A stretch of 64,000 nucleotides of DNA from Jiangella ureilytica (GTDB taxonomy: Bacteria; Actinomycetota; Actinomycetes; Jiangellales; Jiangellaceae), in the NCBI RefSeq assembly GCF_004348545.1, contig NZ_SMKL01000015.1:1-64000 (forward strand), given 5' to 3'. The position numbers were made by a program, and so were the translations under genes. Below the pieces are notes generated by a model. The model did not search any database. It was not told the origin of the DNA and worked only from the letters and a program-made list of their open reading frames with translations. Shown in pieces: positions 41,933 through 44,607 of the stretch; the stretch's first letter is position 1; the number at the start of each line of letters is the position of its first letter.

Positions 41933-43174
41933 GTGAAGGTACTCGTCATCGGTTCCGGCGCGCGAGAGCACGCCCTGGTCCGCTGCCTGCTGCGCGACCC
42001 CGAGGTCTCCGAGCTGCACGCGGCGCCGGGCAACGCGGGCATCGCCGCCGACGTCGCCGTCCACTCGGTCGTGGCGGACCAGCCCGAGGCGGTCGCCGAC
42101 CTGGCCGCGCGGCTGGGGGTCGACCTCGTCGTCGTCGGGCCCGAGGGTCCGCTGGTCGCGGGCGTCACCGACGCCGTCAAGGCGCGCGGCATCGCCTGCT
42201 TCGGGCCGTCGGCGCGCGCGGCGAAGCTCGAGGGGTCGAAGGCCTTCGCGAAGGAGATCATGGCCGCGGCCGGCGTGCCGACGGCCATGGCGGTGGTCTG
42301 CGAGACCCGCGCCGAGATCGAGGCCGCACTGGACCGCTTCGGCGCGCCGTACGTCGTGAAGGACGACGGCCTGGCCGCCGGCAAGGGCGTCGTCGTCACC
42401 GACGACCGCGAGGCCGCCATCGCACACGCCGAGGCCTGCGGCCGCGTGGTCATCGAGGAGTACCTCGACGGCCCCGAGGTCTCGCTGTTCTGCGTCACCG
42501 ACGGCCGGGTGGCGGTGCCGCTCACGCCGGCCCAGGACTTCAAGCGCGCCCACGACGGCGACGAGGGCCCCAACACCGGCGGCATGGGCGCCTACACGCC
42601 GCTTCCGTGGGCGCCGGACGACCTGGTCGCCGACGTCATGGAGCGCGTCGTCCAGCCGACCATCGACGAGATGCTGCGCCGCGGCACGCCGTTCGCCGGA
42701 CTGCTCTACACGGGCCTGGCGCTCACGTCGCGCGGCGTGCGCGTCGTCGAGTTCAACGCCCGGTTCGGCGACCCCGAGACGCAGGCCGTGCTGATCCGGC
42801 TGCGCTCCGGCCTCGGCGGGCTGCTGCGCTCCGCCGCGACGGGGACGCTCGCCCAGCACCCGGAGCCGGTGTGGCAGGACGGCTCCGCCGTCACCGTCGT
42901 CGTCGCCGCCCACGGCTACCCGGCGGCGCCGCGCACCGGCGACCGCATCGAGGGCCTGGCCGAGGCGGCCGCCGTCAAGGGCGTCGAGGTGCTGCACGCC
43001 GGCACCCGGCTCGACGCCGACGGTGCCGTGGTGTCCAGCGGCGGCCGGGTGCTCTCGGTCACCGGCGTGGGCGAGGACCTCGACGAGGCCCGCGCCCGCG
43101 CCTACGAGGCCGTCGGGCTGATCTCGCTCGAGGGCAGCCACCACCGCACCGACATCGCGCTGCAGCGCGGATGA
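41933..43174 (+). CDS. purD: phosphoribosylamine-glycine ligase
   Basis: Second step of purine synthesis (GAR synthetase), 413 residues. It has the N-terminal [13 protein letters not shown], the ATP-grasp segments [16 protein letters not shown] and [22 protein letters not shown] near 217 and [13 protein letters not shown] near 282. The GTG is probably leaderless. The stop overlaps the folP start as ATGA. Confidence 0.97.
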
Positions 43175-44049
43175 ACGCTGCGGCGCCGACGAGCACCGGC
43201 CGGCCGGTGCGCTACGTCGCGGGGCTCCCGCAGCCGCCGCGCGCGCTCGTCATGGGCGTCGTGAACGTGACGCCCGACTCCTTCTCCGACGGCGGGTTCT
43301 GGTACGAGCCCGGCGACGCCATCGAGCACGGGCTGCAGCTGGTCTCGCAGGGTGCGGACCTGGTCGACGTCGGCGGCGAGTCCACCCGCCCGGGCGCGGA
43401 GCGGCCGACGCCCGACGAGGAACGACGGCGCGTGCTTCCGGTCATCCGCGAGCTGGCCGCGGCCGGCGCCGTCGTCTCCGTCGACACCATGCGGGCCGAG
43501 GTCGCGGCACCCGCGCTCGAGGCCGGGGCCCGGCTGGTCAACGACGTGTCCGGCGGGCTGGCCGACCCGGACATGCTGCGCGTCGTGGCCGAGGCGGGCG
43601 TCCCCATCGTGCTGATGCACTGGCGCGGGCACTCCGACCACATGCAGGAGCAGGCGGTGTACGGCGACGTCGTCGCGGACGTGCTGGCCGAGCTGCGGCC
43701 GCGGGTCGACGCCGCTTTGGCCGCCGGCATCCGGCCCGAGCACATCGCCGTCGACCCGGGGCTCGGTTTCGCCAAGACCTGGGACCACAACTGGACGCTG
43801 CTGGCCCGGCTGGCCGAGCTGCACGCGCTGGAGCTGCCGCTGCTGGTCGCGGCGTCGCGCAAGACGTTCCTGGGCGAGCTGCTGGCCGACCCGGCGACCG
43901 GCGAACGCCGTCCGCCGGCCGGCCGCGACGCCGCCACCGACGCGCTGTCGACGACGATCGCGCTGGCCGGCGCCTGGTGCGTCCGGGTGCACACCGTGCC
44001 CGCCACGCTCGACGCCGTCCGGGTCGCGGCCCGCCTGGCGCGGGGATGA
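43171..44049 (+). CDS. folP: dihydropteroate synthase
   Basis: Joins pterin pyrophosphate to p-aminobenzoate; target of sulfonamides. The 292 residues carry [16 protein letters not shown] near residue 25, the loop [20 protein letters not shown] near 64, NDVSGG near 124 and SRKTFLGEL near 229. The ATGA overlap with purD couples the two. About 195 bases of structured leader separate it from folB. Confidence 0.96.
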
Positions 44050-44099
44050 GCCGGACCGTGGCCGATCGCACCTCCGACCGGGGCGCCGTGACCAGGGCT

Positions 44100-44117
44100 G
44101 GGCGACTAGGGTCGCCC
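44100..44117 (+). other. hairpin just after folP
   Basis: GGGCGAC-TAGG-GTCGCCC is a perfect seven-base stem with a tetraloop, 50 bases after the folP stop. It is either a weak terminator without U run or the first helix of the folB leader. Confidence 0.5.
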
Positions 44118-44122
44118 GTGGG

Positions 44123-44224
44123 GGGCCGTGCACACCGGCGTCGGCCGGGGGCCGAAGGCTCCCCGCGAGTCGTCGGTCCAGGACGGTCGAACGTCGGAGT
44201 GGGCGAGCGTGGCGTGCACGGCCC
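44123..44224 (+). ncRNA. candidate structured leader of folB-folK
   Basis: GGGCCGTGCAC (44123-44133) and GTGCACGGCCC (44214-44224) are perfect 11-base complements that would close an 80-base loop. Inside it, GGGGGCC-GAA-GGCTCCCC (44147-44164) forms a hairpin with one bulged T. The closing arm ends only seven bases before the GAGGAG ribosome site of folB. This is the layout of a cis-regulatory RNA. I did not recognise a known riboswitch class. Confidence 0.5.
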
Positions 44225-44244
44225 GAACCGTGAGGAGAAGTCGA

Positions 44245-44607
44245 GTGCCTGACCGCATCGAGCTGCACGGCCTGACCGCCCGCGGACGCCATGGCTGGTT
44301 CGACCACGAACGGGAGAACGGCCAGACCTTCGTCGTCGACGTCGCACTCGACGTCGACGTGCGCGCGGCGGCTGAGACCGACGACCTGACCGACACCGTC
44401 GACTATGGCAGTCTTGCGGAGCGGGTGGTCGGCCTCGTCTCGGGGGAGCCGGTCCGACTGGTCGAGACGCTCGCCCAGCGCATCGCCGACCTCTGCCTGG
44501 AAGACCCCAGGATAGAGGCCGCGGAAGTGACCGTGCACAAGCCGGAGGCGCCGCTGACGGTGCCGTTCGGCGACGTGACCGTGACGATTCGAAGGGCCAG
44601 AACGTGA
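44245..44607 (+). CDS. folB: dihydroneopterin aldolase
   Basis: Cleaves dihydroneopterin in folate synthesis, 120 residues. The opening ELHGLTARGRHGWFDHE holds the active-site Glu/Tyr region (here Trp follows the Gly), TVDYGSLAE is near 51, LVETLAQRIAD holds the substrate Glu, and the catalytic Lys is in VHKPEAPL. The GTG start has a GAGGAG site; its stop overlaps folK as GTGA. Confidence 0.95.
   Translation: MPDRIELHGLTARGRHGWFDHERENGQTFVVDVALDVDVRAAAETDDLTDTVDYGSLAERVVGLVSGEPVRLVETLAQRIADLCLEDPRIEAAEVTVHKPEAPLTVPFGDVTVTIRRART

Follow-up and report, generated by a model that had tools for sequence, protein, structure and literature searches.

The structured leader of folB in Jiangella ureilytica appears to be one copy of a dispersed, fold-conserved element

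Why does a structured leader stand between two folate genes in Jiangella ureilytica, and does its position mean that it senses a folate? The leader lies at 44050-44244 of the window, by which we mean the whole 64,000-nt stretch analyzed, and its neighborhood consists of folP, folB, and folK according to Pfam. The features needed here are the following.

43171-44049, + strand: folP (pterin-binding enzyme), gene upstream; PF00809, E 2.3e-79
44107-44112, + strand: -10 box TAGGGT of the native folB promoter, by sequence
44115-44244, + strand: 130-nt stretch missing in relatives, from locus comparison
44118-44237, + strand: structured element, type A; covariance-model match 44118-44236, 97.7 bits, E 2.0e-17
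44118-44252, + strand: open frame GTG...TGA through the element, with an 8-nt overlap with the folB start
44123-44133, + strand: P1 5' arm, GGGCCGTGCAC
44135-44142, + strand: P2 5' arm, CCGGCGTC
44147-44163, + strand: P3 hairpin, 44147-44153 with 44157-44163
44169-44176, + strand: P2 3' arm, GTCGTCGG
44214-44224, + strand: P1 3' arm, GTGCACGGCCC
44232-44237, + strand: Shine-Dalgarno sequence GAGGAG, within the stretch missing from relatives
44245-44607, + strand: folB (dihydroneopterin aldolase), GTG start; PF02152, E 3.2e-37

A preliminary description of this DNA had pointed to an 11-base perfect long-range helix (44123-44133 with 44214-44224), and this helix is present as described: the arms of P1 are perfect reverse complements over 11 bp, and they covary. 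The seven-pair hairpin placed inside it at 44147-44164 corresponds to P3, in which 44147-44153 pairs with 44157-44163 through seven pairs, including one G-U, around a GAA loop. We also confirmed that the long helix stops 7 nt short of the folB ribosome site GAGGAG (44232-44237). A hairpin in front of the helix, at 44100-44117, does form 7 bp (44100-44106 with 44111-44117), but it overlaps the -10 box and we rejected it as a part of the element, since pairing there is at chance level across 52 type-A copies (42.1% paired versus a shuffle mean of 39.4).

We then looked for related sequences, and found 8 further partial DNA matches to 44040-44250 in the same genome. The copies follow a common plan, with a 5' arm GTGGAGGGCC-TGCAC, a P2-P3 core, and a 3' arm GTGCA-GGCCC-GACAC, and in the aligned copies the GACAC of this arm is often followed by AGGAG and a start codon; most copies have 60 to 75% G+C. 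A first covariance model, built from eight copies, gave 38 matches at E≤10 and 28 at E≤0.01 in the source genome (G000) and, at E≤0.01, 18, 44, 9, 0, 6, 9, 55, 0, 58, 0, and 1 copies in the congeners G001 to G011 (G and L numbers denote genomes and loci), while three genomes from two other genera of the same family had 1, 4, and 2 copies. With this model, the element was found in 12 of 60 genomes searched, the source included, under stricter filters that lose weak matches. A second model, built from 102 copies, matched 13 of 296 genomes of the class, from 3 of 114 genera and a single family, and contributed one extra copy, in G008; at most 12 candidates were scored per genome in this search, so that it gives minimum copy numbers. 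In an exact pattern scan across 84,980 species, with a pattern fitted to types A and B and a collection that may omit the window's own genome, the 15 matching stretches all came from Jiangella aurantiaca and J. rhizosphaerae, and phage and plasmid collections returned no match with one type-A copy as the query. Judged by sequence, the folB leader thus belongs to a dispersed family of elements, each ∼120 nt long, that share a conserved fold.

Some copies have particular surroundings. Tandem pairs occur at L100 (442-558 and 566-682), where the second copy also lies directly 5' of the start codon, at L207 (1048-1167 and 1173-1292), and at positions 3737326 and 3737452 of G003:C1; on this last contig, 7 of the at least 11 matches in G003 fall within ∼0.26 Mb (3.74-3.99 Mb). 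Beyond the window, its own contig carries a second copy, of type C (G000:C66:76215-76333), which is present in G002 and absent in G001, G004, and G009. A copy at L047 (G020) sits directly 3' of an apparent tRNA 3' end, as judged by eye.

Folding energy is uninformative as a test in such G+C-rich sequence, and the support for the fold is comparative, drawn from the aligned copies. The z score was -0.10 for 44050-44244; for the element by itself (44118-44247), it was -1.74, and the fold of minimum energy there includes P1 but pairs the interior in a manner unlike the family fold. When 52 type-A copies were aligned with MAFFT without regard to structure, P1 was 95.1% paired with 51 double-sided changes, compared to a mean of 12.7 and a maximum of 23 double changes in 500 shuffles, and to 24 to 46% pairing with 1 to 12 double changes in slid controls. 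P2 had 3 double-sided changes versus a shuffle maximum of 2 in the same alignment. P3 was 97.1% paired versus a shuffle mean of 96.8 in these 52 copies and had no double-sided change, so that type A alone gives no test of P3. Across all subtypes (102 copies), 92.0% of the cells were paired, 26 of 31 pairs had double changes, and the covariation score was 0.354 versus 0.170 when shuffled and 0.040 to 0.084 when slid, in an alignment fitted to the covariance model and hence leaning towards it. A small fifth helix was unsupported (45% paired in the 102 copies), and GA was found on both strands just outside P1 in 81 of the 102 copies. The element, as read from these alignments, is a conserved fold in which a closing helix, P1, stands beside a tandem G-A/G-A step and encloses P2-P3. 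That the leader is structured and that its arms compensate for each other's changes is hence supported by copies at other genes. It had also been proposed to align the folP-folB gaps of relatives, but those gaps have no leader to align.

In all 11 congeners and in G012, from another genus, folB is preceded by TAGGGT or TAGTGT, 6 nt, and the start codon, without a leader, and the site was empty in every relative read. In G001, for instance, 4 nt (TGGC) separate TAGGGTCG from the GTG start codon, versus 130 nt in the window. These promoters predict leaderless folB transcripts in the relatives, and the Shine-Dalgarno sequence of folB in the window arrives with the inserted stretch and adjoins P1. 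A copy would have inserted in the source lineage between the -10 box and the folB start codon. As for the effects on folB, we infer that its mRNA would now start near the 5' end of the element and that its translation would proceed via the Shine-Dalgarno sequence of the element. We propose, with a probability of roughly 0.8, that the folB copy is one of many insertions of a mobile element, through which a leaderless start gained a structured leader and a Shine-Dalgarno sequence.

The location between folP and folB had suggested regulation by a folate-type signal, and a folate- or pterin-sensing riboswitch specific to folB would fit that location. The copies on unrelated genes and the absence of the element at folB in 11 of 11 congeners contradict it, and the Rfam search gave no match for the element. 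THF riboswitch models had no hit at gathering score on the window and none at E≤10 when eight copies and their flanking sequence were searched, and the preliminary description had recognized no THF-I or THF-II cores; on the same eight copies, Rfam at E≤10 returned six weak rows, all off the element. None of nine other type-A host genes scanned is a folate gene, and we consider a folB-specific riboswitch extremely improbable.

Type-A copies elsewhere gave a picture similar to that at folB. At nine further sites, we compared 30 orthologous loci from six relatives, matched across both flanks and without the element; these loci, like the 28 used below for the other subtypes, were chosen as spanning both flanks and are thus empty by choice. 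At L012, the element was absent in 4 relatives. Nine of the eleven type-A sites (L009, L010, L011, L012, L013, L015, L018, L021, and folB) are leaderless by sequence in relatives, and the two others compared (L016 and L017) lie at operon junctions. The filled copy at L010 no longer has its -10 box. Tests of placement, pairing (MAFFT), and target duplication used 52 of 54 copies, two of other subtypes being dropped. Among these 52, from five genomes, 38 start 3 to 10 nt after TAnnnT, compared to 91 of 23,520 other flank positions (0.4%), and 48 have a recognizable start just downstream, with an SD-like 4-mer upstream of the start in 32 of the 48. The nine other downstream genes that were scanned encode a metallophosphoesterase, an SDR, a HAD hydrolase, a histidine phosphatase, a DEAD/DEAH-box helicase, a histidine kinase, a TetR regulator, a LigD primase-polymerase domain, and a lysine-decarboxylase-family protein; these genes are unrelated and have no common pathway.

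Some relatives are filled at type-A sites (L011 in G007; L013 in G001 and G007) and at further sites (L022 in G002, L030 in G009, and L032 in G007). In G002, the gene of L010 carries a different type-A variant (L174); this copy has lost part of its interior, and it is flanked by an intact TAGGGT on one side and by TGATG on the other. Likewise, L124 (484-600) and L020/L282, from different species, carry different type-A variants at the same gene start. The same start therefore seems to have received an element, or to have undergone conversion, on more than one occasion. At L172 (G005), another sequence lies upstream of the gene, near a contig end; L158, L167, L172, and L176 gave no alignment from which an empty site could be read. 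Since some relatives are filled, single cases could be losses. The species tree was built from ∼3 kb of sequence and has one node at 0.245 support.

The placement of type A also bears on another explanation, that of a class of cis-regulatory leaders, riboswitch or protein bound, recruited before many genes and kept for regulating them. Its favorable points are the co-oriented start just downstream of 48 of the 52 copies, the 38 that begin near the expected transcription start, the conserved core with a covarying P1 and an adjoining Shine-Dalgarno sequence, and the different type-A variants that species carry at the same start (L010 and L174 in G002; L020/L282 versus L124). It is weakened by the lack of a pathway common to the downstream genes, by a copy number that ranges from 0 to 58 inside one genus, and by the absence of the element at orthologous genes in many relatives; further evidence came from the other subtypes and from shared sites, as follows.

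We surveyed the neighbors of 73 copies (30 in G000 and 43 in G009 and G007) with a simple gene finder, sorting them by eye. Type-B copies follow a co-oriented gene in 16 of 21 cases, the next gene downstream of a type-C copy is co-oriented in 17 of 21, and type-D copies end 2 to 5 nt before a start in 10 of 11, with an upstream ORF reading into 8 of the 11. One type-C copy, common to three species (L027, L239, and L238), lies 3' of an apparent EF-Tu gene, judged by eye, and has a compensating G-C to A-U change in P1. For ten of the 12 B, C, and D sites (L024 and L028 were left out), we found 28 orthologous loci without the element, matched across both flanks; split matches that may be filled (L029, L038, and L034 in G002; L032 in G001; L024 in G009) were also left out. 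The insertion is at TGATG at L023 and at an ATGA overlap at L032, and that at L022 is clean with no visible loss. At L026 (1501-1620), a type-C copy stands in frame within an ORF, to which it adds 123 nt, and is absent in four relatives; at L029, the copy is antisense to the neighboring genes. Because stop/start overlaps, an ORF interior, and an antisense position are all occupied, insertion is not bound to promoters alone. Type A is found at starts, type B mainly behind genes, and type D at stop/start overlaps, an association of subtype with site that exceeds what random insertion should produce and that could point to a selected function.

Copies also decay. Remnants or scars were found at L159 in G001, L262 in G002, and L130 in G009; among the 30 loci matched for type A, G009 keeps a 3' remnant of the element at L018, among the 28 for the other subtypes, G002 has a truncated copy left at L019, and at two sites deleted type-A copies left a scar that bears a Shine-Dalgarno sequence. 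In nine pairwise comparisons of shared type-A sites, which are partly non-independent, 12 P1 pairs differ, of which 8 are broken, 3 kept by one-sided changes, and 1 changed on both sides. With 8 of 12 changed pairs broken, the type-A fold is kept between copies and not clearly within sites. It looks as though the fold is kept mainly for propagation of the element, the resident type-A copies decaying and being deletable. Seven comparisons of shared B, C, and D sites gave 3 broken P1 pairs, 2 with one-sided changes, and 5 with both-sided changes, and compensating changes in place at shared C and D sites may indicate some local constraint. The loss of P1 pairs at shared type-A sites and the related subtypes found antisense (L029) or within an ORF (L026) add to the points against a cis-regulatory leader class, which we regard as quite unlikely.

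The open frame of the folB copy raises yet another possibility, namely, a MIRU-like mobile short ORF, leaderless from its first codon and translationally coupled to the gene. An ORF survey took 66 copies by a loose pattern, at least 2 of them not type A and one without a frame. The first codon is GTG in 50 of 65 copies and ATG in 3, the frame of the folB copy overlaps the start, and a 4-nt stop/start overlap occurs in 9 of 65. Frame 0, however, is open in 44 of 65 copies versus 48 for frame 2 and 32 for frame 1, and many copies have internal stops. The GTG...TGA frame of the folB copy is not conserved among copies, its translation being hypothetical, and we find a mobile short ORF improbable.

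In our best reading, the element is small, non-autonomous, and mobile, with a MIRU-like mode but held by its fold. Its mover was sought among known enzymes. Reverse transcriptase (RVT_1) was found in only 1 of 12 genus genomes (G006), with none in G000, G001, G002, G007, or G009, and Y1 transposase (Y1_Tnp) in 0 of the 12; neither is supported as the mover, the former being missing from high-copy genomes and the latter from the genus genomes searched. No autonomous copy of the element was seen. General target-site duplication received no support, the best offset being found in 4 of 52 copies and reached by 4 of 200 permutations.

These results also bear on a DNA-level MITE, in which the inverted repeats are transposase-binding ends and the folded strand has no role. 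Terminal inverted repeats, a size of ∼120 nt, and filled and empty sites are all in line with it, as are a few duplications seen by eye at single sites (CTGAC at L016, GTCG at folB, TTGA at L012, and TGTGCC at L225, compared with the flank of L091). It is harder to reconcile with the sense placement of type A, the lack of general duplication, and arms that vary but stay complementary, which a sequence-reading transposase does not need, and we hold it to be unlikely. That the arms differ yet stay complementary suggests instead that the folded strand is the thing recognized, and insertion would then occur by movement of this strand. A fold-recognized element could enter the melted strand of an open promoter or the 5' end of an mRNA. 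We put forward only tentatively that it represents a new kind of mobile element, recognized by its fold, targeting joint transcription and translation starts (leaderless promoters and stop/start overlaps), and switching genes from leaderless to Shine-Dalgarno initiation.

For a mobile, fold-held element of this sort, the genus offers a natural experiment on leaderless translation, in which a gene that is leaderless by sequence in one species has a Shine-Dalgarno-bearing, structured 5' untranslated region in its sister, with this contrast available at several loci at once. The genus is also suited to tracing how an element defined by its fold is gained, decays, and is deleted, and it raises the question of what enzyme moves an element whose fold is preserved while its sequence is not. 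The folB case cautions against taking every structured leader between genes of one pathway for a riboswitch.

How does the element compare with known systems? It resembles THF riboswitches in being placed ahead of a folate gene, folB, and differs from them in having no Rfam match and in its other host genes, which are not folate genes. REP/RAYT elements are palindromes dispersed through a genome and owe their form to folded single strands. The Jiangellaceae element is likewise dispersed and palindromic, with a folded single strand, but unlike REP/RAYT elements or IS200/IS605 derivatives, it comes with no Y1 transposase match among the 12 genus genomes, and unlike group II intron or retron derivatives, it has RVT_1 in just one of these. 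Its P1 arms as terminal inverted repeats and its filled and empty sites recall a generic MITE. According to one review (PMC2229807), RPE, ERIC/RU-1, Correia/NEMIS, RUP, and YPAL measure 100 to 200 bp, have no protein gene, and give transcripts that are long stem-loops; such small MITE-like repeats show filled and empty sites and some in-frame fusions, and most are A+T rich with TA ends and target duplications. Set against these repeats, our element is similar in size, folding, empty sites, and an in-frame case (L026), and it differs in its mostly 60 to 75% G+C, the lack of general duplication, its varying arms, and the position of type A at gene starts. A limited literature search found no account of such an element in Jiangella or Jiangellaceae, and we rate it as a new family among the small MITE-like repeats, undescribed as far as Rfam and this search show. 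MIRUs are small actinobacterial repeats, apparently mobile, that enter at start codons and affect the gene little, according to PMC12548453. They have an ORF coupled at -4 nt, whereas the Jiangellaceae element has no conserved ORF; lacking this coupled ORF and being compared by features alone, it is not filed here as a MIRU. It shares with MIRUs its insertion at start codons or stop/start overlaps (types A and D and one B site; L023 and L032), and it is set apart from them by a covarying P1 and by leaderless promoters as a main site.
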